Positions 20,069-32,274 of a DNA stretch of 64,000 nucleotides are shown piece by piece. The stretch is from Kordia sp. GTDB lineage: Bacteria; Bacteroidota; Bacteroidia; Flavobacteriales; Flavobacteriaceae. The stretch lies in the NCBI RefSeq assembly GCF_022447245.1, contig NZ_JAKVBC010000015.1, positions 1 to 64,000 of the forward strand. Direction: 5' to 3'. Both the position numbers and the translations under genes were made by a program. Position 1 is the stretch's first letter. Every line of letters starts with the position of its first letter. Below the pieces are notes generated by a model, which saw only the letters and a list, made by a program, of their open reading frames with translations, made no database searches and was not told where the DNA came from.

Positions 20069-21040
20069 TTATTCTAAACTTGGTAAAATTACTTTGTCAA
20101 TAGCGTGAATTACACCATTCACTGCTTGTACATCTGTCACTATAATATTACCAGTTCTTCCGTTTAAATCTGTAAAAGTTGCTCCATTAGTTGTGTTTAT
20201 AGTAAAATTATCACCTAATGTGCTTACGATCATTCCATCTGTTAATGTAGATGCTAATACATTTGCTTGCGCAACAACGTGCGTGTTTAAAGTGGCTTCT
20301 AGTGTAGCTGTTGGAATATCTGCTAAAGAATTTACTCCATCTAATTCCGCAACTAAATCAGCAAACGCTTGATCTGTTGGCGCAAAAACTGTAAATGGAG
20401 CTGGAGATGTCTTTGTACTTAGTGTAGCTACATATGTAAATGAATCCTCTCTTGTTAGTGCAGCAACCAAAGATCCAAAAGTTGAGTCAGCAGTAGCAAA
20501 AGTTACTACTGTAGGTAAATCAATTACTGCATCTACAGCATGGATAACACCATTATCAACATCTACATTGGCTGTTGTTACTGTAGCCGCTCCATTTAAT
20601 ACAACACCATTGCTAGTATTTACATACATACTTAGTGTGTTTTGTGTGGTTGCTTCTTCTGCCAATGTTTTGATATAACCAGTACTTAAATCAGAAGAAG
20701 TGTTTGTTCCACTCACTACATGATTCAATAACACTTGTGTCAATACATCAGTTGGTACAGCTTCTAAGTTAGCAAACCCATTTGATGCTAAAAATGCATC
20801 AAATGCTGCATTGTTTGGAGCAAATACTGTATAGGCTGTTGTACCATCTAATACTCCTGTTAATCCAGCTCTGTCTAAAGCTGCTCCTAGAGAACTAAAG
20901 TCAGAGTTTGCAGCAACGAAATCTGCGATAGTATTACTTGGTATTGGAGTAACAACATTATTATCATCGTCACTACACGAGGTTAGTGTGAATAATGAGA
21001 TTACAAAAGCCATAAGGATAAGTGTTTTTTTCTTTTTCAT
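20069..21040 (-). CDS. Fasciclin (FAS1) domain lipoprotein
   Basis: A 323-residue exported lipoprotein: lipobox LTSC with Cys22, a short Asp/Asn linker, then two FAS1 domains (about 38-180 and 185-322). Each has the FAS1 hallmarks FAPNNAAFD or FAPTDQAFA in the H1-like region and NGVIHAVDAVI or NGVIHAIDKVI in the H2 region. FAS1 domains mediate adhesion, and in bacteria some are light- or stress-induced. The gene sits directly downstream of the photolyase block but has its own promoter region, with a TATATTTG -7 element and a dyad also found before folE. Confidence 0.93.
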   Translation of the reverse strand: MKKKKTLILMAFVISLFTLTSCSDDDNNVVTPIPSNTIADFVAANSDFSSLGAALDRAGLTGVLDGTTAYTVFAPNNAAFDAFLASNGFANLEAVPTDVLTQVLLNHVVSGTNTSSDLSTGYIKTLAEEATTQNTLSMYVNTSNGVVLNGAATVTTANVDVDNGVIHAVDAVIDLPTVVTFATADSTFGSLVAALTREDSFTYVATLSTKTSPAPFTVFAPTDQAFADLVAELDGVNSLADIPTATLEATLNTHVVAQANVLASTLTDGMIVSTLGDNFTINTTNGATFTDLNGRTGNIIVTDVQAVNGVIHAIDKVILPSLE

Positions 21041-21085: not shown

Positions 21086-21135
21086 CAAATATAAATAATT
21101 TTGTTTAAAGAAAATTAAATAATGTTAAACAAAAT
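21086..21135 (-). promoter_or_regulatory. Promoter and 11-bp dyad of the fasciclin gene
   Basis: On the minus strand a TATATTTG -7 element (21086-21093) has no TTG 19 bp upstream. A perfect 11-bp inverted repeat, ATTTTGTTTAA at 21098-21108 and its complement at 21125-21135, with 16 bp between the arms, covers the place of the -33 element. A weak -33 with a dyad over it suggests regulation by a dimeric factor. The core GTTTAA-N16-TTAAAC recurs upstream of folE. Confidence 0.55.
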
Positions 21136-21188: not shown

Positions 21189-22493
21189 TTAGGTTTCAAT
21201 TCCACTTTTGTATCTCTCTAAGCAGCGTATACGGGCTTCTTTGTGTTCTACAATTTGAGTTGGATAGGTAAATTCTTGATAATCAGGAACCCATTTTCGA
21301 ATATATTCGTGTGCTTTATCAAACTTTTGGATCTGAGAAGTTGGATTGAAAATTCTAAAATATGGAGAAGAATCGCAGCCAGTTCCTGCAACCCATTGCC
21401 AATTCCCAACATTTTGAGCCAAGTCAAAATCCAGTAATTTTTTTGCAAAGTATGTTTCTCCCCATTTCCAATCAATTAGTAAATGTTTACATAAAAAACT
21501 TGCTGTAATCATACGAACTCTGTTATGCATATAGCCAGTTTCATTGAGTTCGCGCATACCTGCATCTACTAGAGGATACCCTGTTTTCCCTTCGCACCAA
21601 GCTTTATATTCTTGTTCGTTGTTACGCCACTTGATACCATTGTATTTTAGTTTGAAATTGTTTGTGACTGATTCAGGGAAATGCCAAAGAATCTGCATAA
21701 AAAACTCTCTCCAAATGAGTTCTTTTAAAAAAGTATTTTCTTCAGATAATAATCCGTTCTGTACACATTGTCGAACACTTACAGTACCAAATCGCAAATG
21801 TGGACTTAATTTGGAAGTTCCTTCTATAGCAGGGAAATTTCGAGTGGATTCATAATTAGCAATGATGTTCTCAGTCATTGTATATGGAAGTACTTTAATA
21901 GTAGACTTTATAAATCCGATCTCTTCAAGAGAAGGAAAATTGAAAGATGTTTTAGCAAAGTTTCCGTAATGAGCACTACAATTAACACTTTCATAATCAA
22001 ATTTCTTAAGAGTGGCTAGCCATTTTTTTGAATATGGAGTATACACTGTATATGGTTTACCATCTGCTTTTACAATTTCATTGCGTTCAAAAATGACTTG
22101 ATCTTTAAAGCTGTGAAATGCAATATTTTTGGTCGCTAGAAATTCACGCACTTTTTCATCTCTGGCAATAGCATACGGTTCATAATCATGATTAGTATAT
22201 ACAGCCGTAATGGTAAATTTTTGTGTTAGTTTATGAAAAATTTCTAAAGGATTTCCATGTTGAACCATGAACGAAACTCCATAGTTTTCTTGAAGTGTAT
22301 TATTGATTTTTTCTAATTCTTCATGTATAAACGTAACACGAGCGTCATCTTGTGGTAAATTACTTAAAATGTCTTTGTCAAATATAAATAATGGGATCAC
22401 TTTACTACCACAAGTTAAAGCTTTGTATAAACCAATATTATCTTCGATACGTACATCTCTTCGATGCCAAAAAAGTACATAATTATCCTTCAT
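21189..22493 (-). CDS. phrB: Deoxyribodipyrimidine (CPD) photolyase
   Basis: Light-driven repair of cyclobutane pyrimidine dimers. The 434-residue protein has the N-terminal antenna domain (about 1-130, FWHRRDVRIEDN at the start) and the C-terminal FAD domain (about 190-420) with LIWREFFMQILWHFP, GYPLVDAGMRELNETGYMHNRVRM and NVGNWQWVAGTGCDSSPYF, which includes the WQW segment of the Trp electron-transfer chain. ATG 22493 is chosen over 22502 because MKDNYVLFWHRR fits the family. It overlaps the SRPBCC gene by 11 bp and is the last gene of the folE-TspO unit. Confidence 0.95.
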   Translation of the reverse strand: MKDNYVLFWHRRDVRIEDNIGLYKALTCGSKVIPLFIFDKDILSNLPQDDARVTFIHEELEKINNTLQENYGVSFMVQHGNPLEIFHKLTQKFTITAVYTNHDYEPYAIARDEKVREFLATKNIAFHSFKDQVIFERNEIVKADGKPYTVYTPYSKKWLATLKKFDYESVNCSAHYGNFAKTSFNFPSLEEIGFIKSTIKVLPYTMTENIIANYESTRNFPAIEGTSKLSPHLRFGTVSVRQCVQNGLLSEENTFLKELIWREFFMQILWHFPESVTNNFKLKYNGIKWRNNEQEYKAWCEGKTGYPLVDAGMRELNETGYMHNRVRMITASFLCKHLLIDWKWGETYFAKKLLDFDLAQNVGNWQWVAGTGCDSSPYFRIFNPTSQIQKFDKAHEYIRKWVPDYQEFTYPTQIVEHKEARIRCLERYKSGIET

Positions 22494-22971
22494 ACGTTCC
22501 AAATAGTTCAGTTAATTTTTTAGTTCGGTATTCAAATATTTCTTTCAATTTGGGTTTAACTAAAATAGGATACATCAATCGCCCCAAGAAACCAAGTGGA
22601 ATTTTATAATCTATAATATCTTCCATTTCTACACCGCCGGGAATTTCTCTGATAAAATGCTTGTGATGCCACATAGAATAAGGTCCAAAGCGTTGTTCGT
22701 CAACAAAATAATGTAGGTGCTTTACTTGTGTAATTTCAGTAACCCAATGTATTTTTATCTTAAAAATGGGCGTTACAATGTATTGGATAATTTGACCGGG
22801 ATACATTTTGCCCAAATCTTCTGTGAGAATGTCAAAACTCATATAATCAGGCGTAATGGTTTTTAAATTCTTTGGATCTGACAAAAAATCCCATGCCTCT
22901 TCAAGAGATATGGGAAGGTTTTGTTTGCTGTGTAACCGATACACAATTCCTTTCGTGCTAAATTTTCGCAT
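22483..22971 (-). CDS. SRPBCC family protein
   Basis: A 162-residue helix-grip (SRPBCC/START-like) protein. It shows an N-terminal strand (GIVYRLHSKQNLPISLEEAW), FLSDPKNLKTITPDYMSF, and the strand HFVGPYSMWHHKHF-like region FGPYSMWHHKHF, ending in a helix (EIFEYRTKKLTELF). Close relatives are often annotated as cell-division-inhibitor-like or ligand-binding proteins and recur beside photolyase, TspO and SDR genes in light-induced clusters of other bacteria. Ligand unknown. It lies 6 bp after tspO and overlaps phrB, so it is part of one operon. Confidence 0.85.
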   Translation of the reverse strand: MRKFSTKGIVYRLHSKQNLPISLEEAWDFLSDPKNLKTITPDYMSFDILTEDLGKMYPGQIIQYIVTPIFKIKIHWVTEITQVKHLHYFVDEQRFGPYSMWHHKHFIREIPGGVEMEDIIDYKIPLGFLGRLMYPILVKPKLKEIFEYRTKKLTELFGTYEG

Positions 22972-22977
22972 AAAATA

Positions 22978-23439
22978 TTAATTCATAAATAAAATATAGC
23001 CGTTTAAAGAATTGGCTACGATCAACCATGTAAAATAGGGCAGTATAAATATGCTGTATATTTTTTCTTTAGGTCTAGTTGTAAATGTCATCATGGTAAT
23101 CAACGCAAATAGTACAATTAAATTTACCATTCCAAGAGAGATGTTGTGTTGGTTAAAAAAGACATAATTCCAACTTATATTCAATATAAATTGAAAAGTA
23201 AATACTAGTATTAAAACTTTATTGATTTTAGTATCCGTGAGTTTAGCCATGAATATTGAAAAACATATCATTACAGTTGTCCACGCAAAACCAAAAACCC
23301 ATCCTGGCGGTGTCCATGGAGCTTTATCTAAGTTTAAATACCAATCAGTTCTTGGTCCATCATTCATTAAAATAATGCCTATACCTAATGCTCCAAAGTT
23401 GATGATTAAGAACAGGATAAGACGTGCAATAAAGTTCAT
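22978..23439 (-). CDS. tspO: TspO/MBR family protein
   Basis: A 153-residue inner-membrane protein with five hydrophobic helices and the aromatic TspO signatures: APWTPPGWVFGFAWTTVM (about 40-57) and ISWNYVFFNQHNISLG (about 105). TspO proteins bind porphyrins and are linked to tetrapyrrole and oxidative-stress or light responses; Rhodobacter TspO modulates photosynthesis gene expression. The setting between an SDR (3 bp) and an SRPBCC gene (6 bp) in a photolyase operon fits a photo-protective role. Confidence 0.93.
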   Translation of the reverse strand: MNFIARLILFLIINFGALGIGIILMNDGPRTDWYLNLDKAPWTPPGWVFGFAWTTVMICFSIFMAKLTDTKINKVLILVFTFQFILNISWNYVFFNQHNISLGMVNLIVLFALITMMTFTTRPKEKIYSIFILPYFTWLIVANSLNGYILFMN

Positions 23440-23442
23440 AGT

Positions 23443-24126
23443 TTATAATTTTAAACTCACAATTCCACAGTCAATCGTAAAAATTTGACCTGAAGTAGAA
23501 CCTGCCTTGTCAGAGATTAAAAAATCTGCCATATCTGCTACTTCTTGTGGTTGCAAAAACTTTTTTAAAGGATGGCGTTCTGCAATGTTCTCAATCATTT
23601 TTTCATTTCGCAACAACTTGCTCGCAAGCGTAGTATCGGTAACAGTTGGCGCAATGGCATTAACACGAATGACAGGAGCAAACTCAGCAGCCAATGTTTT
23701 CACCAAGCCTTCTACAGCAGATTTTGCGGCAGCAATACTTGCATGAAAAGGCATTCCTAAATGAGTAGCTACTGTGCTAAACAATAATATATTAGGGTTT
23801 GTTCCTTTTTTTAAAATAGGAAGATATTTTTGAATTGACTTTACTGCACCTATGACATTGATTTCATAATCATTTCTAAAATCGTCAATTTTTAGTCGTG
23901 AAACAGGTTTTAAGTTGATACTTCCCGGACAATAGATAAGTGTATCAATTGATGCTATATCAGGAAGTTCATCTTCAAGGATATCACAACTATAGTGCGT
24001 TAAGTTATTGGAAGTTATTTCAGGAGCGGTTCTACTAATATTAATCACATTGTGATGTTGTATCTGGGAATGAACAATAGCAGCACCAATACCTTTACTA
24101 CCTCCAATTACTACAATATTTTTCAT
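23443..24126 (-). CDS. SDR family oxidoreductase
   Basis: A classical short-chain dehydrogenase of about 227 residues: NAD(P)-binding GGSKGIGAA near the N-terminus, NVIGAVKS, and the catalytic region LFSTVATHLGMPFHASIAAAKSAVEGL, in which the usual YxxxK appears as HASIAAAK, so the catalytic Tyr is replaced. The C-terminus has VRVNAIAPTVTDT and the final SGQIFTIDCG. The missing Tyr suggests altered catalysis or a binding role. ATG 24126 (MKNIVVIGGS) is chosen; the ORF opens at 24180 but that stretch overlaps a hairpin. Lies 3 bp before tspO. Confidence 0.88.
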   Translation of the reverse strand: MKNIVVIGGSKGIGAAIVHSQIQHHNVINISRTAPEITSNNLTHYSCDILEDELPDIASIDTLIYCPGSINLKPVSRLKIDDFRNDYEINVIGAVKSIQKYLPILKKGTNPNILLFSTVATHLGMPFHASIAAAKSAVEGLVKTLAAEFAPVIRVNAIAPTVTDTTLASKLLRNEKMIENIAERHPLKKFLQPQEVADMADFLISDKAGSTSGQIFTIDCGIVSLKL

Positions 24127-24169
24127 TTGTTTGGATTGATAGGTTGTTGTTGTTGTTTTACTCATTGAA

Positions 24170-24204
24170 AACAATGCCAATAAGGGCTAATTATTAGCAT
24201 TGTT
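24170..24204 (-). terminator. 14-bp inverted repeat between the 67-aa gene and the SDR gene
   Basis: AACAATGCCAATAA pairs with TTATTAGCATTGTT (13 of 14 positions, one G-T) with a 7-base loop. On the minus strand it is followed by TTTTC, so it could act as an internal terminator or attenuator dividing folE plus the small gene from the SDR-TspO-SRPBCC-photolyase genes. An operator role is the alternative. Confidence 0.5.
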
Positions 24205-24226
24205 TAACCTTGAGTTCGGGGTAAGT

Positions 24227-24430
24227 TTATTTTAAACGTTTTTCATACTTTCTTTTAAGCACAGTCAAACGCTTCATAATTTCCATAATTGCAGGATCTT
24301 TTTTCTGCTTATAAATTTCATTCAATCCTAAGATTAAACGCTTTGCTTCTCGGGTTGCAGTGATTTTATCACTTCTTGATATGAACTTTGTTTTCTCAAA
24401 GTCCGATACTTCTGAAAAAATAGTTGCCAT
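24227..24430 (-). CDS. Small conserved-looking helical protein
   Basis: A 67-residue basic protein that appears all helical (ATREAKRLILGLNEIY and IMEIMKRLTVLKRKYEKRLK). It starts 3 bp after the folE stop, so it belongs to the folE transcript. I do not recognise a family. Its position between folE and the SDR suggests a role in the same response, possibly as a small DNA- or RNA-binding or adaptor protein; this is inference from charge and context only. Confidence 0.65.
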   Translation of the reverse strand: MATIFSEVSDFEKTKFISRSDKITATREAKRLILGLNEIYKQKKDPAIMEIMKRLTVLKRKYEKRLK

Positions 24431-24433
24431 AAT

Positions 24434-25135
24434 TTAATTGTTTAAAAAGTTTTGTAATTCTAGAATTTTTTCGGGAGTGTTGAATACACCACCATAATAG
24501 GATGTAATTGTTGTAGAAGAGTCATCTTTAACTCCTCTTGATGAAACACATAAGTGTTTGGCATCTATAATTACAGCTACGTCTTCAGTTTGTAATATTT
24601 CGCATAATTCAATAGCAATCTGGTTAGTCAAGCGTTCTTGTACCTGAGGTCGCTTTGCGTAATATTGAACAATTCTGTTTAGTTTCGATAATCCAATTAC
24701 TTTCCCGGAGGAAATATATGCTACATGCGCTTTTCCCATGATTGGGACAAAGTGATGTTCACAATTTGAATAAAATTGAATGTTTTTCTCAATAAGCATT
24801 TGATTGTATTGATATTTGTTATCAAACAATGCTATTTTAGGTTTGTTTTTTGGGTCAAGCCCAGAGAAAATTTCTTCTATGTACATTTTAGCAACTCGCT
24901 TAGGAGTTCCTTTTAATGAGTCGTCAGTTAAGTCAAGACCTAACGTTTCCATAATTTCCTGAAAATGATAGGCAATTTTTTGTTTCTTTTCCTTGTCTGG
25001 CATTTCGAAAGCATCTGTACGCATAGGAGTTTCCATACCTGTAAGTAGGTGTTCATCCCCAATTTCATCATGATCAAACCCATTCAAGGACAGGGAAGTA
25101 TCACTCAATTGGTTTAAAACGTCAGCAGTTTTCAT
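24434..25135 (-). CDS. folE: GTP cyclohydrolase I
   Basis: FolE converts GTP to 7,8-dihydroneopterin triphosphate, the entry to folates and pterins. At 233 residues it has the family core: PKRVAKMYIEEIFSGL, zinc ligands in SNCEHHFVPIMGKAHVAY (about 122-139), GLSKLNRIV, and the third ligand in DAKHLCVSSRGVKDDSS (about 192). The first 40 residues are an extra tail. In light-response clusters FolE is thought to supply methenyl-THF or pterin antenna cofactor for photolyases; two photolyases flank it here. It heads the second unit and has its own promoter region with a GTTTAA-N16-TTAAAC dyad. Confidence 0.96.
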   Translation of the reverse strand: MKTADVLNQLSDTSLSLNGFDHDEIGDEHLLTGMETPMRTDAFEMPDKEKKQKIAYHFQEIMETLGLDLTDDSLKGTPKRVAKMYIEEIFSGLDPKNKPKIALFDNKYQYNQMLIEKNIQFYSNCEHHFVPIMGKAHVAYISSGKVIGLSKLNRIVQYYAKRPQVQERLTNQIAIELCEILQTEDVAVIIDAKHLCVSSRGVKDDSSTTITSYYGGVFNTPEKILELQNFLNN

Positions 25136-25147
25136 ATATTAAAAAAA

Positions 25148-25177
25148 TGTTTAATTATTTGAATATAAAGTTAAACA
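25148..25177 (-). promoter_or_regulatory. GTTTAA-N16-TTAAAC dyad upstream of folE
   Basis: TGTTTAA (25148-25154) and TTAAACA (25171-25177) are separated by 16 bp, 13-42 bp upstream of the folE ATG. The same half-sites and spacing occur before the fasciclin gene (21103-21130). A common dimeric regulator is plausible. No clean TAnnTTTG element is visible between the dyad and the start. Confidence 0.5.
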
Positions 25178-25249
25178 AAATAAAATAGATTTAAAAAAGA
25201 ATCATAGCTTTTTTTACTAATACTTGTATAAGGAAAAGTTATGATTGCT

Positions 25250-25528
25250 TTATCGTTTGGCTATTTTGTTGTTATTTATAGTACTTTGTCGAGAACACTT
25301 GAAACGACCTTTCATAAAATCACGTTTTTTTTGATGCTTTGTTTTGCGACCTTGTACACGCTTTCTCCACATTTTAAAACTAGAATTTTTCATTTGAGAA
25401 CGCATTAAATCGATAACTTCTTGTTCTTTGAGTCCAAATTGAAACTTTATAGCATCAAACGTAGTACGATCTTCCCAGGCCATTTCTATAATTCTATCAA
25501 TTTGTATGGCGTTTAAGTTGTGTTTCAT
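25250..25528 (-). CDS. TIGR03643 family protein
   Basis: A 92-residue basic protein with the TIGR03643 pattern: IQIDRIIEMAWEDRTTFDAI (about 9-28), FGLKEQEVIDLMRSQMK, then FKMWRKRVQGRKTKHQKK. The first half resembles a helix-turn-helix. This family is regularly encoded beside photolyase/cryptochrome genes; its role is unknown. It overlaps the upstream gene by 4 bp (ATGA) and is the last gene of the TetR-headed unit, followed by a 114-bp gap to folE's promoter region. Confidence 0.9.
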   Translation of the reverse strand: MKHNLNAIQIDRIIEMAWEDRTTFDAIKFQFGLKEQEVIDLMRSQMKNSSFKMWRKRVQGRKTKHQKKRDFMKGRFKCSRQSTINNNKIAKR

Positions 25529-25953
25529 CCTTGATAATAATCTGTAGCGTTAAGTACTGTATTTTTTTGTGTCTGCATTTTTTCTATGAATGCTTTATTT
25601 TCTTTGTAGAGTTTGTTTTTTTTAAACTGAATAAAGTTACCATTTGCATGAATGCTAAAAAATGAGGAATTGTAAATTTGAAGTCTGTAATAAGGAACGA
25701 TCCACGAAAAGCTATTCAGTTTTTTGTGAATATGAACAATGATGCCTTTTGGACGTAATTCAATATTTCCATAATTAAGATCATCAACGGTATTTAGATA
25801 GGGTTTCATTTTTGGGCTTACATTATGAATAATCATTCGTTTAGAGCCAATTCCTTTCATTTTAATACGTTGTATAATTGAAAAAGCTTCACCTAAGTGT
25901 GTATCAATTATTTCAGCAGTTTCTTTGTTTTTGTAGGTTGTATTAACAATCAT
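25525..25953 (-). CDS. Hypothetical protein in the photolyase operon
   Basis: A 142-residue soluble protein of unknown family. It starts with a helix (NKETAEIIDTHLGEAFSIIQ), then basic strands with IELRPKGIIVHIHKKLNSFS, and ends in a Lys-rich helix (KENKAFIEKMQTQ). The beta-rich centre looks like a small PH-like or ligand-binding fold, but this is impression only. It overlaps the photolyase stop by 1 bp (TAATG) and the TIGR03643 start by 4 bp, so translational coupling ties it to both. Confidence 0.75.
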   Translation of the reverse strand: MIVNTTYKNKETAEIIDTHLGEAFSIIQRIKMKGIGSKRMIIHNVSPKMKPYLNTVDDLNYGNIELRPKGIIVHIHKKLNSFSWIVPYYRLQIYNSSFFSIHANGNFIQFKKNKLYKENKAFIEKMQTQKNTVLNATDYYQG

Positions 25954-27440
25954 TACGAACTTTTTTTGCGGTTCTTTAGGGTATGTTTTTTTAAGATTCT
26001 GAAGTTTTCTTCAATGACTGTGGTTTCATCTTTCATATTCCATAAAATGTCACTTGCATATTTTCTAGTTTCTTGTAAATCAACAATAGGTTTAGGATAA
26101 TTTTTCCCTATAAAAAAGTTTGCCATTTGTTGTTCCATGGGAGTCATACGAGATGGTTCGTGTACAAAAGCTGTTTCTAGGTTTTCTAATTCAGGAACCC
26201 ATTTCTTAATAAAGATACCTTCAGGATCATGTGTAATACCATTTTTTGTTGGATTGTACATTCGTAATAGATTTACACCAGTTTCTCCTGCTTGCATTTG
26301 AATTTGTGGAAAATGTATGCCAGGTTCAAAATCTAAAAAGTATTGAGATAAGATAATCGTTGCTTTTTGCCATGGTTGCCATAAATTGTGCGTAAAGAAG
26401 GATACTACAAGCGCACGCATTCTAAAATTCAAATATCCTGTTTCCTTCAAACAGCGCATGCAAGCATCTACCAATGGATAGCCCGTCATTCCGTTTTTCC
26501 AAGCTTCTATATAGCGTTCAGAAATCTGTTTTTTTAGCTTTCTGTATCCTTTGTTTATACTCACGAATTCCATTTCGTCTTCCATTTCAAATTTTTGAAT
26601 GAAATGCGCTTGCCAACGCAAACGCGATCCAAAGGATTCCATTTGTTTTTTGTGAATGTTTTGGTCAATACAACGTTTTGTTTCTTTTATTACTTGTCGT
26701 ACCGATAAATTTCCCCAAGCTAAATATGGAGACAAACGGCTACAGCTTCTTCGAGCTAGTAATGGCTTGGAAATATGTGCATTGTAGTTTTTTCCACGAT
26801 CCTTAAAAAAGGTATTCATATACTTCATCGCCATTGTAGTTCCACCTTTTTGAAAAGGAGCATCAGGATTGGTTTCTAAGTTTGGAAGCTGAAAAAAAGT
26901 TGTCAAATGCGCGACCTCTTCTTTTGTAAACAATTGATCTTTTTTTGGACGAAAGTCAAATAATGGTTGATTCATGAAATCTTCCCAGAGTTCTATCCAG
27001 TTTTCACGATCTTTTAATCCTCTGAAAACTCCGTTATTTATATTTTCTACCCAAGTAATCATATTGTTCAGTAGAAAACGTTTCAAACCTTTATCACGAT
27101 CATAAGTAACTTTGATGCCTGTTTCTTGATGCGAATACAGATGCGAAATTTTGTAAGTTTCCTGAATGATCTGCAAAGTTCTGTTAAAGTTTGATTGTAC
27201 AATTAATAGTTCACTATTGTGCAAACTCAAAGAATTATTCAAGTCGATTAATGATTCTTTAATAAAGTTCCAGTGACGTTCACTATAGTGCGGATCATTT
27301 AAAAGAATATCTTCAAAAACAAATACAAACAACGTTTTCCGTCCTGTAATGAGTGCATTGTGAATCGCCTCATTATCTTGGAGTCGTAAATCACGCTTAA
27401 AAAGGACAACATTAATTTCTATTTTGTTTTTTTTTGACAT
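25953..27440 (-). CDS. Divergent cryptochrome/photolyase family protein
   Basis: A 495-residue flavoprotein with an antenna domain (about 8-130, VVLFKRDLRLQDNEA) and an FAD domain (about 270-480): LARRSCSRLSPYLAWGNLSV, WQAHFIQKFE, GYPLVDACMRCLKETGYLNFRMRA. The segment that in CPD photolyases reads NxxWQW is here PGIHFPQIQMQAGETG, so the FAD-proximal Trp of the classical electron-transfer triad and the neighbouring Asn are replaced. It is a distinct clade from the phrB product in the same block. DNA repair of an alternative photoproduct or photosensing are both possible. It is in the TetR-headed operon, 8 bp after the upstream gene. Confidence 0.9.
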   Translation of the reverse strand: MSKKNKIEINVVLFKRDLRLQDNEAIHNALITGRKTLFVFVFEDILLNDPHYSERHWNFIKESLIDLNNSLSLHNSELLIVQSNFNRTLQIIQETYKISHLYSHQETGIKVTYDRDKGLKRFLLNNMITWVENINNGVFRGLKDRENWIELWEDFMNQPLFDFRPKKDQLFTKEEVAHLTTFFQLPNLETNPDAPFQKGGTTMAMKYMNTFFKDRGKNYNAHISKPLLARRSCSRLSPYLAWGNLSVRQVIKETKRCIDQNIHKKQMESFGSRLRWQAHFIQKFEMEDEMEFVSINKGYRKLKKQISERYIEAWKNGMTGYPLVDACMRCLKETGYLNFRMRALVVSFFTHNLWQPWQKATIILSQYFLDFEPGIHFPQIQMQAGETGVNLLRMYNPTKNGITHDPEGIFIKKWVPELENLETAFVHEPSRMTPMEQQMANFFIGKNYPKPIVDLQETRKYASDILWNMKDETTVIEENFRILKKHTLKNRKKSS

Positions 27441-27448
27441 TTATATTT

Positions 27449-28870
27449 TTAATTTTTTTTGACAAGTTTATTAATCATTCCCTTGAATATAAAACCGTGA
27501 AAAGGCAGTACTGCATACCAATACAATCGACCCCAAATCCCTTTTGGTCTAAAAACAGCACGTTGTAATAAATGTTCTTTTTCAATTTTAAATTCTAACC
27601 AAGCTTCACCTGGTAATCGCATTTCTGCAAATAACAGCAATCTTTTTTCTTCTTTATTAGCGTATAAAACTCTCCAAAAATCTAACGGATCACCTGCATT
27701 AAGTGTAGTTTGGTCTCTGCGGCCACGACGCAATCCGATACCGCCGAATAGTTTATCGAGATATCCACGAATTTTCCACAGAAAGGTTGCATGGTACCAA
27801 CCTGTTGTGCCGCCAATTGCCCAAATTTTGTCAATGGTGAGTTGTTCGTCAACCACTTTGCGTCTTTTGATATCTTTAAAACAACCATATTCTGGCACTT
27901 TGATATAGCGCGATATTTTTTCACGAAAACGCCCACTTATCAACGAATCTTTCCAACTTGAGACAACGCTGTTTTGTTCAATTTTGATGAATGCTTTTTG
28001 TACAGCTTCTTTGTAAGATATTGGTTGAATGTTTAAAAGTTCATTGATATTGCTTGGTTTTCCAATGACTTCTACTTTCATACTATCCACTAGGTTTTTT
28101 GCCAGCTTGTAAGAAGTTGTTGTGATAAAATATAACCAATAAGAGGAAAGCTTCGGAGTCATTACAGGAACGGTAAAAATAGAACGCTTTAACCTTCTAA
28201 CTTCTGCAAATTGTAACATCATGTCTTTATACGTTAGTGTATCTGGACCAAAAATATCGTAAGATTGATTGTATACATGTTCATTTCCAATAGCTTTTGT
28301 TAAATATTGCAGTACGTTTCTAATGGCAATAGGTTGCGATTTTGTTTTAATCCACTTTGGTGCTATCATGACCGGCAGTTTCTCTGTAAGATCACGAATA
28401 ATTTCAAAAGAAGCACTTCCGCTACCAACAATGATTCCTGCGCGAAATGTAGTTAGTTTGTATAGACTTGACTGCAATATGTTTTCAACATTTTTTCGCG
28501 ATTGTAAATGTTTTGATAATTGTTGATCATTGACAATTCCACTTAAATAAATAACTTGCTTTACTTTGGTATTCTGCATATACGTTTTAAAGTGTACAGC
28601 ACAATTGCGTTCCAGTTTTTCGAATTTCATAGAAGATGACATGGAGTGAATTAGATAGAACGCCACATCAATATTTGTTGGAATTCGGTACAAACTACCC
28701 AAGTTTAAAAAATCAACTTCAATCACATCAATTCGTTCATGTGAAATGATTTCATGAGGCACACGTTGTTTATCTCTCACACAGCAAACTAAGGAATGTC
28801 CCATTTCCAAAAGAATTGGAATGAGTCGTTTCCCTATATATCCTGTTGCGCCAGTGAGTAGAATTCGCAT
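27449..28870 (-). CDS. NAD(P)-binding SDR-like protein with DUF2867 tail
   Basis: A 473-residue two-domain protein. The N-terminal Rossmann part (about 1-300) opens LLTGATGYIGKRLIPILLEMG and continues with AFYLIHSMSSSM and VIYLSGIV, typical of extended/atypical SDRs. The C-terminal part (about 320-470) matches the DUF2867 pattern: KVVDEQLTIDKIWAIGGTTGWYHATFLWKIRGYLDKLFGG, AGDPLDFWRV, EMRLPGEAWLEFKI. Such proteins are common in light-induced gene sets of other bacteria; substrate unknown. It lies 8 bp after the flavin reductase. Confidence 0.9.
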   Translation of the reverse strand: MRILLTGATGYIGKRLIPILLEMGHSLVCCVRDKQRVPHEIISHERIDVIEVDFLNLGSLYRIPTNIDVAFYLIHSMSSSMKFEKLERNCAVHFKTYMQNTKVKQVIYLSGIVNDQQLSKHLQSRKNVENILQSSLYKLTTFRAGIIVGSGSASFEIIRDLTEKLPVMIAPKWIKTKSQPIAIRNVLQYLTKAIGNEHVYNQSYDIFGPDTLTYKDMMLQFAEVRRLKRSIFTVPVMTPKLSSYWLYFITTTSYKLAKNLVDSMKVEVIGKPSNINELLNIQPISYKEAVQKAFIKIEQNSVVSSWKDSLISGRFREKISRYIKVPEYGCFKDIKRRKVVDEQLTIDKIWAIGGTTGWYHATFLWKIRGYLDKLFGGIGLRRGRRDQTTLNAGDPLDFWRVLYANKEEKRLLLFAEMRLPGEAWLEFKIEKEHLLQRAVFRPKGIWGRLYWYAVLPFHGFIFKGMINKLVKKN

Positions 28871-28878
28871 AGTTTCTG

Positions 28879-29493
28879 TTATTTGGGACGTTGATACGGA
28901 TAGCGTGTTTGTTGTTGTGGTATCGCATATCCATCAAGTCCATTAATGGTGGCGGTTTCAGCTTTCGCAAGATTTATAAAACCGTCCGTTTCTAAAATAG
29001 TATCGTTGATATGTATCTGTTCTATAGTGCCAATCACTAAAATGGTATTATTTTCTGCAATCAAATATTCATTCATGTAACGCATGCCAATTTGTACATG
29101 ACATCCTTTTACATACGGAGCTGCAAAATCACTTTTATATTCAGTTTCTAAATCTGTTTGATCAAACTCTGAAATAAATTTTGGATATTTTGCTGAGGTA
29201 TGATGTGCATCCTTGGTTATCGTTTTGTGAATATGATTGATCGTATATTTTCCTGTTTCTTTTATGTTTTCATACGTGTTTCTCGGAACAACATTTGGTC
29301 GCGTAATAAACCCTAGTAATGGCGGATTAGAACCTAAATGTGTCACAGAGCTAAATACTGCAACATTTGTGTAATCTTCTGATGATTTTGTTGCAATTAG
29401 ATTTGCCGATTTATAACCAGAGCAACTATTGATCAAGTTGATTCGGTATATTTTTTCCATTGCTTCAATATCAGCAGAAGTGATGATAGCCAT
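28879..29493 (-). CDS. Flavin reductase family protein
   Basis: A 204-residue flavoprotein of the FMN-binding split-barrel (flavin reductase-like) family: YRINLINSCSGYKSANLIAT with the NVAVFSSVTHLGSNPPLLGF binding region (about 46-65), RPNVVPRNTYENIKETGKY and AYVKGCHVQIGMRYMNEY-like strand near 130. It may reduce free flavin or bind FMN for the flavin-dependent proteins nearby. It overlaps the UbiB-type kinase gene by 1 bp (start codon at 29493), so expression is coupled. Confidence 0.9.
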   Translation of the reverse strand: MAIITSADIEAMEKIYRINLINSCSGYKSANLIATKSSEDYTNVAVFSSVTHLGSNPPLLGFITRPNVVPRNTYENIKETGKYTINHIHKTITKDAHHTSAKYPKFISEFDQTDLETEYKSDFAAPYVKGCHVQIGMRYMNEYLIAENNTILVIGTIEQIHINDTILETDGFINLAKAETATINGLDGYAIPQQQTRYPYQRPK

Positions 29494-30806
29494 TATGATA
29501 TATTTTTAAAATTATTAATGATTACATTTTCAGCTTTCAAATCATGCAATAAATTATAGAGTCCAAAAAATGTTCTGTTCATGTAAATAAAATGCTTTGA
29601 GCCTCTGTTTCCGTTCATATTACGTAATTGTGTGTTTTTAGCATAACGTTCACCGATATCTGCAATTTTTCCGAAAAACTCTTCATCCGAAAAATCAAAA
29701 ACTTCCGTATTAAAGGGTGTTGTAAACAATCCAAGTAATTCGTGAAACATCTCTGTAAAAAATGCTAGTTCTTCTTTAGTATCGTCTTCACGAAGTATTT
29801 CTAATTCGTATAACTTATTTACAAACAATTCATGATCGTTCAAAGTTTCGTTGTTTGCCAATTCGAAGTAAGGGATGTAAAAATCTTCTGGAATAGCTTT
29901 CATACAGCCAAAATCCAATGCAATCAATTCATGATTTTCTGAAACCAAGAAATTCCCAGGATGTGGATCTGCATGTACTTTACGGTATTTATGAATTTGA
30001 AACATATAAAAGTCCCAAAGTGTTTGTCCTATTAAATTCGCTTTTTCCTGATCGGTATTTCGAGCGGTAAATTCAGATAAATGTTCCCCTGTCATCCAAT
30101 CCATGGTTATGATTCGCTCCGAAGAGAGCGAATCATAGTATGTGGGAAAAAGTATGTTTGGCAAATGCTTGCAAGCTTCAGATACATCTTTACTTTGTTT
30201 AATTTCAAGTAAATAGTCGGTTTCTTCGATCAATTTCTCTTCCACTTCCTTAAAATATTTATCAGAACCTTTTCCGGTAATGTTAAACATTCGAATCGCA
30301 ATAGGTTTTACAAGTGCCAAGTCAGTAGAGATGCTTTTGGCAACTCCAGGATATTGAATTTTCACAGCAAGTTTTTTCCCGTCTTTTTCGGCAACGTGTA
30401 CTTGTCCTATACTTGCGGCATTCATGGAAGTGGAATTGAATGAATCGTAAATTTCACTTGGATGTTTGCCAAAATATTTTTTAAATGTTTTGATGACTAG
30501 TGGTGGAGACAAAGGTGGTACAGAGAATTGTGATAATGAAAATTTCTCCACATAGGCACGTGGCAAAATGTTCTTTTCCATACTCAACATTTGTGCTACT
30601 TTTAATGCACTTCCTTTCAACTTTTTTAGTCCGTCATAAATATCTTCCGCATTGGATTCGTTTAAGCGTTCTTTTGCTTTTTCTTCAGAATTTATGAGTT
30701 TGTCACCATAATATTTTAAATAATTTACACCAACTTTTGCACCAGTCGTAACTAACTTACTGGCACGTTGGATTTTGGTGATTGGGATTTTATCAATTGT
30801 CTTCAT
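29493..30806 (-). CDS. AarF/ABC1/UbiB kinase family protein
   Basis: A 437-residue atypical kinase-like protein. Visible are the ABC1 KxGQ-like motif region (LKGSALKVAQMLSMEK about 65-80), ALASIGQVHVAEKDGKKLAVKI-type segment ASIGQVHVAEKDGKKLAVKI (about 135), and the catalytic-loop motif HADPHPGNFL followed by ALDFGCMK (about 290-310). UbiB/ABC1 members take part in ubiquinone or menaquinone metabolism and, in plants, in light-stress tolerance of plastids. It overlaps the TetR and flavin reductase genes by one base on each side. Confidence 0.93.
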   Translation of the reverse strand: MKTIDKIPITKIQRASKLVTTGAKVGVNYLKYYGDKLINSEEKAKERLNESNAEDIYDGLKKLKGSALKVAQMLSMEKNILPRAYVEKFSLSQFSVPPLSPPLVIKTFKKYFGKHPSEIYDSFNSTSMNAASIGQVHVAEKDGKKLAVKIQYPGVAKSISTDLALVKPIAIRMFNITGKGSDKYFKEVEEKLIEETDYLLEIKQSKDVSEACKHLPNILFPTYYDSLSSERIITMDWMTGEHLSEFTARNTDQEKANLIGQTLWDFYMFQIHKYRKVHADPHPGNFLVSENHELIALDFGCMKAIPEDFYIPYFELANNETLNDHELFVNKLYELEILREDDTKEELAFFTEMFHELLGLFTTPFNTEVFDFSDEEFFGKIADIGERYAKNTQLRNMNGNRGSKHFIYMNRTFFGLYNLLHDLKAENVIINNFKNIS

Positions 30807-31465
30807 TAAGCTCTAATATCTAATTTTTCTTTTAGGATGAATTTTCCAAAGTCTACGATGCTTCGTAGTGGCGTATTGTCAATTAAATCAAAACTAGCGT
30901 TTACAGATTTTTCAATGTACTGATCGGTTTTATCAAAACTTGGAGATGTATCATCTAACCAAAATTTTATAGTCATTAAAAATTGTACCCAAGCTGTTTC
31001 GTTGATAGCTCTATTTTGAAGTTTTTCTAAGCGTTCTTGATTCAAATCGAGCGTTTTGATGTCTAAATTCTCAATAAAATCTGAGAATACTGTTTTTAGT
31101 CCTTTCAACAACTTTAGGGATTGAAGTTGATTTTTATTTGCAGTCAAACTATGTACTACGTAACTTCTATTGGCGGTAACTTGCTCAAAAAAAGTATAAT
31201 AAAAGCTCAATAATTTATTTCGTGCATCAAATGTTGCAAATTCCTCACTATTGGCTAATGCAGCAATAGTGTTTGTGCCAAATGTGGTAAATATGTTTTC
31301 TTCTAATACTTGAAACGAACTGAAAAATTCGTAAAATTTTGCTTCATCAAAATTGTTGTTTTTTGCAAAAGCATATACATTTTTAGGTTGTGTACCATGT
31401 TCTAAGACATGATCCATATATGCTGAAATAATAAAAAGTGGTGTAATATTTTTTTTCTTTGCCAT
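30806..31465 (-). CDS. TetR-family transcriptional regulator
   Basis: A 219-residue regulator. The N-terminus (about 5-55) has a TetR-type helix-turn-helix outline (TPLFIISAYMDHVLEHG, then NVYAFAKNNNFDEAKFYEFF), and the rest is all helical and ends in the TetR C-terminal-like bundle. It is the first gene of a seven-gene unit with near-zero spacing, and a perfect 11-bp dyad lies 11-42 bp upstream of its ATG, so it probably autoregulates the operon. Ligand unknown; a light- or flavin-linked metabolite is a guess. No B12-photoreceptor (LitR/CarH) gene is present in the window. Confidence 0.85.
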   Translation of the reverse strand: MAKKKNITPLFIISAYMDHVLEHGTQPKNVYAFAKNNNFDEAKFYEFFSSFQVLEENIFTTFGTNTIAALANSEEFATFDARNKLLSFYYTFFEQVTANRSYVVHSLTANKNQLQSLKLLKGLKTVFSDFIENLDIKTLDLNQERLEKLQNRAINETAWVQFLMTIKFWLDDTSPSFDKTDQYIEKSVNASFDLIDNTPLRSIVDFGKFILKEKLDIRA

Positions 31466-31475
31466 GTTGTAGAGT

Positions 31476-31507
31476 TTAAACAGTATAAAAATACAAATAC
31501 TGTTTAA
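31476..31507 (-). promoter_or_regulatory. Candidate TetR operator (11-bp perfect dyad)
   Basis: TTAAACAGTAT (31476-31486) is the exact reverse complement of ATACTGTTTAA (31497-31507), with 10 bp between. The site is 11 bp upstream of the TetR ATG and overlaps the only possible promoter of the seven-gene unit. A symmetric site in this place is typical of TetR autorepression. Confidence 0.7.
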
Positions 31508-31614
31508 CTTATTTTGAAATTAGTTGAACAAAAAAAATGAAAGCATTGTTAAAGTTTTCTTAAAACGGTAATTAAGAAATCTAAATATGGAGAAGAAATG
31601 AGGTTATTTATGCT

Positions 31615-32274
31615 TTAACAGTCAGCGTCACAGCAATTTTCGGCTTTTACCAATTTGCAACTCACCACGGCAGTCAAAGCTCCTAAAATTGGTGCGACAA
31701 TGTACAGCCACAAATGTGTGAGCTGTCCAGAGACTAATGCAGGACCAAGAGAACGTGCAGGATTCATAGAAGCTTTGGTCATAGGACCAGCAAACATGGC
31801 TTCTAATAAAACGATTCCTCCAATAGCAATTCCAGCCATAGTACCTATTTCCTTACTTCCTGTTGATACATTTATAATGGTTACCATTAAGAAGAAGGTG
31901 AGCAAGAATTCTAAAATCAAAGCTTTCCAAGGGACAATGGATGGAATAGTAGCTCCTAAGGTTTCGTTTTCGGGCCAAAACATAAATACTAGCAGACTTG
32001 CGCAAATAGCACCTAAACATTGTGATAGAATATATTTTGGAACTTCTTTCCAAGGAAATTTTTTAGCATAGGAAAAAGCAATTGTTACTGCGGGATTAAA
32101 ATGTGCTCCAGAAATTTCTCCAAATGCATAAATCATTCCCATGACAATTAATCCCCAAGTAATAGCAACACCAGGATGTGTGATTTCCCCTGCAATATCA
32201 TTGACTACCATCGCAGCAGTTCCACAAAAAACCATGGTAAATGTTCCTAGAAATTCCGAAATATAATTCTTCAT
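31615..32274 (-). CDS. aqpZ: Aquaporin (MIP family, AqpZ-like)
   Basis: A 219-residue inner-membrane channel with six hydrophobic helices and both NPA boxes: GAHFNPAVT with NPA at 60-62 and MNPARSLGPA with NPA at 171-173 and the conserved selectivity Arg174. The other filter residues look like the narrow water-specific type, so water transport rather than glycerol is expected. The C-terminus ends in a Cys-rich tail (NCCDADC). Promoter elements are weak (TATTTTTG on the minus strand near 32305). It is 150 bp downstream of the TetR gene's start and transcribed the same way, so independent. Confidence 0.93.
   Translation of the reverse strand: MKNYISEFLGTFTMVFCGTAAMVVNDIAGEITHPGVAITWGLIVMGMIYAFGEISGAHFNPAVTIAFSYAKKFPWKEVPKYILSQCLGAICASLLVFMFWPENETLGATIPSIVPWKALILEFLLTFFLMVTIINVSTGSKEIGTMAGIAIGGIVLLEAMFAGPMTKASMNPARSLGPALVSGQLTHLWLYIVAPILGALTAVVSCKLVKAENCCDADC

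Follow-up and report, generated by a model that had tools for sequence, protein, structure and literature searches.

The question raised by this locus is which regulator controls a compact set of genes that appear to protect the cell from light. The locus lies in Kordia sp., in a stretch of 64,000 nucleotides (the window; contig C7 of the 5.24 Mb genome G000), where positions 21189-31465 hold thirteen open reading frames (ORFs) on the minus strand, packed in two units. An earlier note had described them as a light or photo-oxidative stress module, placed under a TetR-type controller instead of the photoreceptor LitR/CarH. The thirteen genes in two units are present as described and their protein families agree; the assignment to a light response is supported by the gene content and by a shared putative operator. 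All the ORFs proved to be real, while the extent of the module was too narrow, since the adjoining fasciclin-domain gene has its own copy of the repeat and appears to belong to it as well. As regards the wiring, the thirteen genes and the fasciclin gene are probably part of a LitR/CarH light regulon, in which the TetR-like protein would be an effector.

The inverted repeat in the window and in the genome

A 30-bp inverted repeat, TGTTTAA-N16-TTAAACA, is found in the promoter regions of both units. The repeat, its spacing and distribution, the genes that it marks, the presence of LitR and the COQ9-like features of the TetR-like protein were all computed from sequences and predicted structures. 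Allowing one mismatch, the window holds three copies, whereas the 40 first-order Markov windows used as background average 0.2 and never exceed 1; in the same window, the literature-style patterns TTACA-N-TGTAA and TGTAC were uninformative. Six exact sites are present in the genome, two of them in the window, before folE and before the fasciclin gene. Another exact site lies between litR and crtI (contig C27), and one precedes a DASH cryptochrome gene (C31); the DASH and crtI products both score above their NCBIfam cut-offs.

Copies with one mismatch were also considered. Two of them (L162, L163) occupy C78:105814-105888, between the divergent genes for the beta-carotene dioxygenase Blh and for a rhodopsin, and exact sites are found at the same rhodopsin/Blh pair in the relatives G056 and G072; the position of these sites suggests light control of rhodopsin. 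A further one-mismatch site precedes a gene for a Porph_ging-domain protein (C36). At this tolerance the genome counts are 14 for the repeat versus 9 for a control pattern, so single sites of this kind are weak when taken alone. As a side observation, a one-mismatch repeat is located directly before the ferrochelatase gene hemH (C19:51215-51244, L157); it would fit porphyrin photo-stress, or it may be due to chance.

Distribution of the repeat among relatives

In 21 genomes of the family of Kordia, its own genome included, 79 exact sites were counted versus 4 for the reversed pattern, and six other spacings together gave 27 (4.5 each). The genes that start at these sites were analyzed within this family, sites in other families being left out: 73 exact sites lie outside the Kordia genome and 60 of them were examined, the other 13 (three each in G039 and G102, one in G133, five in G138 and one inside L252) being set aside. 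A module-type gene starts at most 260 bp from the site in 43 of the 60 cases, a raw count. These genes code for the TetR-like protein (9), fasciclin (8), CrtI (6), the flavin reductase (3), the 142-residue, DUF2867, SRPBCC, DASH, rhodopsin, SDR (short-chain dehydrogenase/reductase) and LitR proteins (2 each), and the Porph_ging protein, FolE and the 67-residue protein (1 each). Five of the 43 (DASH, rhodopsin, Porph_ging) rest on queries taken from sites of the Kordia genome itself; 38 remain otherwise. In one relative (L257) a predicted operator overlaps the start of the ORF for the 67-residue protein.

A later search gave 565 named matching loci, and the best 80, which therefore represent the closest relatives, were kept. 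This set was not used to define the motif; overlap of its species with the first genome set is possible, and contig ends truncate some of the loci. Gene order and kinase counts refer to all 80, promoter counts to 79, one locus with less than 150 bp upstream being excluded. Within 200 bp upstream of the TetR-like gene, the site is exact in 65 of the 79 promoters and has at most one mismatch in 73, against a shuffle mean of 0.1; at the same tolerance none of the other spacings from 10 to 22 exceeds 3. Position is also constrained, as 69 of 77 sites within the one-mismatch tolerance end 28-37 bp from the TetR-like start, and in 57 of 74, again a raw count, the motif TAnnTTT, which resembles the -7 promoter element of the phylum, begins at a distance of exactly 5 nt on the downstream side of the site. 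Conservation reaches 1.95 bits in the half-sites versus 0.68 bits in the inner 16 bp, an excess that is partly there by construction, because the sites were selected by their half-sites.

A broader view comes from 148 genomes sampled evenly across the order (the even sample). In the family of Kordia, the repeat (at most one mismatch) is found at the TetR-like promoter in 14 of 17 loci, with 11 exact copies; in one of the 14 the site lies 208 bp upstream, and in two it overlaps with the annotated start. LitR and a single exact site are retained in each of two genomes without a match to PF17931, the family of the TetR-like protein (G030 and G087). G143, with no PF17931 match and one large PF02607 protein, has no exact site. 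No exact sites are present in the 19 sampled genomes of another family (f5), 7 of which do have the TetR-like gene; each of the 19 has a single protein with PF02607, the B12-binding_2 domain, of at least 678 residues, and none is LitR-sized. This absence is suggestive, not strong, because the counts for the reversed pattern (3) and for other spacings (about 1.7 each) are low there too.

The LitR/CarH homologue and the half-site core

The genome codes for a LitR/CarH homologue, which matches PF13411 (8e-14) and PF02607 (3e-8); its gene is followed by crtI, then by a squalene/phytoene-synthase-type and a hydroxylase-type gene. The motifs W-x9-EH (WHTQTINPAHEH) and E-x-H-xx-G (EIHEIG), which we take to be the upper and lower B12-ligand motifs of CarH, are both present, and each is found in 35 of 36 homologues, this one included. 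Of nine NCBIfam matches the highest is to CarH (NF052513), whose 66.3 bits fall below the cut-off of 400. PF02310, the full B12-binding domain, gave no match at E<=0.001; as the E-x-H-xx-G motif is present, that model may be too strict. A genome without LitR, as read from the PF02310 search, was ruled out by the PF02607 match. The distance between litR and the TetR-like gene is 6-13 kb in seven genomes; in two Lutibacter loci both are in the same cluster, and in two relatives exact sites mark the start of litR.

The core of the half-site varies together with the recognition helix of LitR: TT is found with R(I/V/M)WE, AT with RTWE and CT with RKWE, the N16 spacing being present in each. Fifteen exact TGTATAA-N16-TTATACA sites occur in six loci of family f8; 9 of the 11 loci with an RTWE helix have a TGTATAA-type site at one mismatch, and G109, with a diverged LitR, carries TGTCTAA-N16-TTAGACA at its litR/fasciclin promoter. 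In loci of the family of Kordia, 27 half-site pairs have spacing 16, and the other spacings from 8 to 24 give at most 3 each. Seen in few lineages, the covariation of core and helix is the strongest indication that the repeat may be bound by LitR itself.

The TetR-like protein and its kinase neighbor

The earlier note had put a TetR regulator at the head of the module. The protein is encoded by the first gene of unit 1 and has a TetR fold; its family match, however, is to PF17931, a C-terminal TetR family, with Kordia periserrulae as the nearest named relative (85% identity), and TetR_N (PF00440) was found neither at E<=0.1 nor among its three matches at E<=1. A search of the genome with PF00440 retrieved six other proteins and not this one; for 37 PF17931 relatives, PF00440 is absent among the 25 families listed of the 33 matched. 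The recognition helix has an invariant glutamate and a net charge of -3 to -1 in all the 37 sequences, compared with 0 to +2 in six canonical TetRs, the 9-mers having been picked by eye.

Among the same 37 proteins the most frequent NCBIfam match is COQ9 (TIGR02396), found in 16 at E<=1, with a best value of 6e-4. The Kordia protein is below the curated cut-offs (16.3 bits versus 74.55 for TIGR02396, 13.3 versus 20.5 for PF08511); it is not a COQ9 member by this measure, and it may work like COQ9. COQ9 has a TetR-like fold with an extra C-terminal helix. The predicted structure of the TetR-like protein (pLDDT 89.6) has its last helix at residues 200-218, and human COQ9 chains stand at Foldseek ranks 2, 4, 5, 8, 11, 14 and 15 (TM 0.54-0.60), rank 2 covering 216 aligned columns; TetR regulators score alike, and the fold comparison leaves the choice between COQ9 and a TetR regulator undecided. 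A phmmer search with the single protein retrieved no COQ9 from the PDB, and the pointer to COQ9 comes from the family models and the fold comparison alone.

No ABC1 protein other than the kinase was found in the genome. The kinase matches PF03109 (3e-54), and among solved structures it comes nearest to COQ8B and to a reconstructed COQ8A ancestor (E about 5e-33). In the best 80 of 565 loci it is always the next matched gene after the TetR-like gene, on the same strand (80/80), and 36 of the 37 loci of the even sample have it downstream in the same orientation. Two loci (L314, L336) have two consecutive kinase matches each, possibly a duplication or a broken gene. COQ7 was not found in the Kordia genome, the positive control having matched in Caulobacter, so that any partner of a COQ9-like protein must differ. 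Because of the COQ9 model matches, the COQ9-like fold, the acidic helix and the constant kinase neighbor with its COQ8 likeness, we lean slightly towards a COQ9/COQ8-like pair that acts on a membrane isoprenoid lipid.

Some results pull the other way. The COQ9 matches are weak (best 6e-4, 0.0068 for the Kordia protein), TetR regulators are matched by the family too (CurR in 9 of 37, best 8e-7; FadR in 6 of 37, best 1e-5), and a profile built on the family alignment found TetR regulators and no COQ9 in the PDB. The best Foldseek match is the TetR regulator 3c07 (TM 0.66), and the charge of the whole helix-turn-helix overlaps, from -6 to +4 in the family and from -1 to +5 in canonical TetR_N domains. 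For the kinase, a bacterial ABC1 protein follows close behind COQ8 (3e-30), and the best NCBIfam model is UbiB, at 146 bits, far below the cut-off of 488.

Proposed control by LitR and its alternatives

Several points count against control by LitR as well. The support is computational throughout, drawn from sequence and predicted structure, and operators and light response are predictions. In the Kordia genome two of the six exact sites (C12, and C20 inside a coding frame) have no regulon gene by the criterion applied, and the folE and crtI sites are unusually near the ORF starts; among the relatives, 17 of the 60 sites examined lack a regulon gene by that criterion, five of these having a sub-threshold fasciclin match. 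The support from the 80 loci is drawn from the closest relatives, and the repeat (at most one mismatch) is found at the TetR-like promoter in none of the 20 loci of other families in the even sample, several of which are from LitR-bearing genomes. The pair is therefore not always under this putative control, which, within the loci sampled, is confined to the family of Kordia. Exact TGTTTAA-type sites are scarce or absent in several families that do have LitR. As for the covariation, all the exact TGTATAA sites were found in six genomes of a single family, and one genus accounts for five of these; two of the 11 RTWE loci (L119, L122) have no TGTATAA site. Finally, N16 differs from the published LitR/CarH layouts. 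In other families with PF17931 and LitR (loci L087-L098) the pair is kept, with a promoter devoid of the repeat and few other module genes.

A different arrangement, with LitR as the main light switch and the TetR-like protein as an additional regulator of local reach, possibly acting on its own promoter, would account for the 20 of 20 pair promoters outside the family that lack a LitR-type repeat. In family f5, whose genomes have no LitR, a different dyad, of the AGTATAAATTAATACT type, immediately precedes the TetR-like gene in 4 of 7 loci (L099, L100, L101, L103); it is too short for a genome-wide scan, where many chance matches are expected, and with the pattern used it was not found in the other three promoters. 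In the window, a near-palindrome, TTAAACAGTAT...ATACTGTTTAA, is present on the minus strand at 31470-31510, between operator and TetR-like start, and overlaps the operator half-site; CAGTAT...ATACTG lies in the same interval. The acidic helix and the lack of a TetR_N match speak against such a role, which we consider unlikely.

That a factor travelling with LitR, and not LitR, reads the repeat appears very unlikely. Binding of LitR is a prediction, and N16 is unlike the published sites, which leaves room for such a factor; nevertheless, two relatives have sites at litR, the crtI gene that immediately follows litR has one too, the half-site changes track the LitR recognition helix, and the TGT/ACA triplets match the published LitR/CarH sites.

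The proposal that the TetR-like protein itself controls the module through the repeat, in place of LitR/CarH, is the least probable of all: its TetR fold, its place at the start of unit 1 and the FadR/CurR matches of some family members speak for it, and yet a LitR/CarH homologue with its B12 motifs is still encoded in the genome, the repeat also marks crtI behind litR, litR in two relatives, rhodopsin and DASH genes, it survives in G030 and G087, which lack the TetR-like gene, it has no exact copy in the seven f5 genomes with the TetR-like gene and no LitR-sized PF02607 protein, all 37 recognition helices are acidic, and the constant partner is the kinase, even where other light genes are missing. 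The COQ9-like features also point away from the TetR-type controller of the earlier note, although the protein may have some regulatory role.

Returning to control by LitR, from these observations we infer binding of LitR to the repeat, a response to light and a lipid function, which would fit together as follows. In the dark, LitR loaded with adenosylcobalamin (AdoB12) would bind the 30-bp repeats at the promoters and keep unit 1, unit 2, fasciclin, crtI, the DASH cryptochrome and probably rhodopsin/Blh low. Light would break the B12 bond and LitR would release the DNA, so that genes for DNA repair, pterins, tetrapyrrole-related functions, flavins and membrane protection would be turned on together. 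The TetR-like protein would be a COQ9-like lipid-binding partner of the COQ8-like kinase, with a membrane isoprenoid lipid, probably menaquinone or a carotenoid, as the target of the pair.

Gene layout and the other proteins

The coordinates of genes and predicted operators are collected in Table 1. Within unit 1, genes overlap by 1 or 4 bp or are separated by gaps of 8 bp; 114 bp separate the two units. An aquaporin-like MIP gene (31615-32274) precedes the TetR-like gene, and a MIP match is present in 29 of the 80 relatives' loci.

Table 1. Genes and predicted operators of the putative LitR regulon; positions refer to the window unless a contig is given.
Feature	Position	Strand	Remarks
TetR-like protein	30806-31465	minus	PF17931; first gene of unit 1
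ABC1/UbiB kinase	29493-30806	minus	PF03109; unit 1
Flavin reductase-like protein	28879-29493	minus	PF01613; unit 1
NAD-binding protein with DUF2867 tail	27449-28870	minus	PF13460+PF11066; unit 1
Second, divergent photolyase/cryptochrome	25953-27440	minus	PF03441/PF00875 for photolyases; unit 1
142-residue protein, possibly PH-like domain	25525-25953	minus	unit 1
TIGR03643/DUF2805 protein	25250-25528	minus	PF10985/TIGR03643; unit 1
folE, GTP cyclohydrolase I	24434-25135	minus	unit 2
67-residue conserved protein	24227-24430	minus	unit 2
SDR oxidoreductase	23443-24126	minus	ATG at 24126 or 24165; ORF opens with TTG at 24180; unit 2
tspO, TspO/MBR protein	22978-23439	minus	PF03073; unit 2
SRPBCC-like protein	22483-22971	minus	weak Pfam match; unit 2
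Photolyase	21189-22502	minus	TTG start, first ATG at 22493; unit 2
Fasciclin-domain gene	20069-21040	minus	adjoins unit 2; own repeat copy; probable additional regulon member
Predicted LitR operator, unit 1	31501-31530	minus	TGTTCAA-N16-TTAAACA, one mismatch; 35 bp before TetR-like start
Predicted LitR operator, unit 2	25148-25177	minus	exact TGTTTAA-N16-TTAAACA; 12 bp before folE ORF start
Predicted LitR operator, fasciclin	21102-21131	minus	exact; 61 bp before fasciclin gene
LitR/CarH homologue	G000:C27:6043-6939		298 residues; MerR + B12-binding_2

The 142-residue and 67-residue proteins have no family match above cut-off. Their inclusion as parts of the module, proposed in the earlier note, is borne out by their recurrence in 52 and 50 of the 80 loci, respectively. 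The predicted structure of the 142-residue protein is confident (pLDDT 94) and its top Foldseek matches are mostly PH/FERM/PTB/EVH1 folds, with weak statistics (best E 0.016, TM 0.51); it may be PH-like. In unit 1, the FAD domain of the second photolyase is nearest to the fly photolyase RE11660p and to animal cryptochromes (E about 4e-33, many near-equal), while the best solved match of the unit 2 photolyase is the type I CPD photolyase 1tez/1owl (E about 3e-87), no NCBIfam cut-off being reached for it. The SRPBCC assignment derives from a weak Polyketide_cyc match (E 0.024), with no NCBIfam match. The queries for the SDR and for the last photolyase began 1 and 2 residues before the ATG, respectively, with the first residue of each read as M; matches were unaffected.

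The neighborhood is conserved in many flavobacterial genomes, and its fuller order is mainly confined to the family of Kordia; in other families the TetR-like/kinase pair often has few other module genes around it. Among the 80 loci, kinase is followed by flavin reductase in 59, the 142-residue by the TIGR03643 protein in 47 and folE by the 67-residue gene in 40; in the even sample, PF17931 is present in 37 and the 142-residue protein in 29 of the 148 genomes.

Comparison with known systems

Three features seem to be new: the layout of the operator, how broad the regulon is in this family of flavobacteria, and its inclusion of a COQ9/COQ8-like pair; neither this operator nor such a pair in a light response was described in the titles and abstract openings of the literature searched. 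The two claims taken together, an N16 operator whose core is set by the helix residue after the arginine and a light-induced COQ9/COQ8-like pair without COQ7, are put forward as a tentative proposal, of which at least one part may well not hold. If true, the DNA preference of a B12 photoreceptor could be read as a code in the LitR/CarH proteins of Flavobacteriales, and the alliance of COQ8 and COQ9 would predate ubiquinone synthesis or extend beyond it, the pair mobilizing, for example, menaquinone or a carotenoid under photo-oxidative stress. For many marine flavobacteria this would provide a regulon, at the level of sequence, that links a B12 photoreceptor to DNA repair, carotenoids and rhodopsin; furthermore, a bacterial COQ9/COQ8-like pair, with no COQ7 found, would make the action of COQ8/COQ9 on lipids testable in a simple organism.

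With TetR repressors the TetR-like protein shares the fold, the position as first gene of an operon and, in some relatives, the FadR/CurR matches, whereas it differs from them in having no TetR_N match and an acidic recognition helix. The likeness to the COQ9-COQ8 pair lies in a TetR-fold protein beside an ABC1 kinase, the predicted fold being near human COQ9 and the kinase near COQ8A/B; conversely, no COQ7 was found here, the context is a putative light regulon and the sequence similarity to COQ9 is weak.

As for the photoreceptor, PMC9758184 reports Pseudomonas LitR sites of the form T(G/A)TACA-N12-TGTA(C/T)A and, among the light-induced genes of LitR homologues, folE, a photolyase gene (phrB) and a cryptochrome-like gene. 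The class II LitR proteins PplR and PmlR share phrB, folE and cryptochrome-like targets with the regulon proposed here (PMC9758184), but they use N12 and a LOV-protein partner, whereas here the B12 motifs are kept and the spacing is N16. A further parallel is with class I LitR/CarH of Thermus, Bacillus and Myxococcus (CarH), with which the Kordia system has in common a MerR and B12-binding domain protein with both motifs, carotenoid genes beside the regulator and an operator, here a predicted one, at the promoter. The CarH operator consists of 11-bp direct repeats, nAnnTnnACAn (PMC8156234), unlike the inverted repeat with N16 found here. The predicted targets are different too, since in Kordia they would include the COQ9/COQ8-like pair, rhodopsin/Blh and fasciclin.

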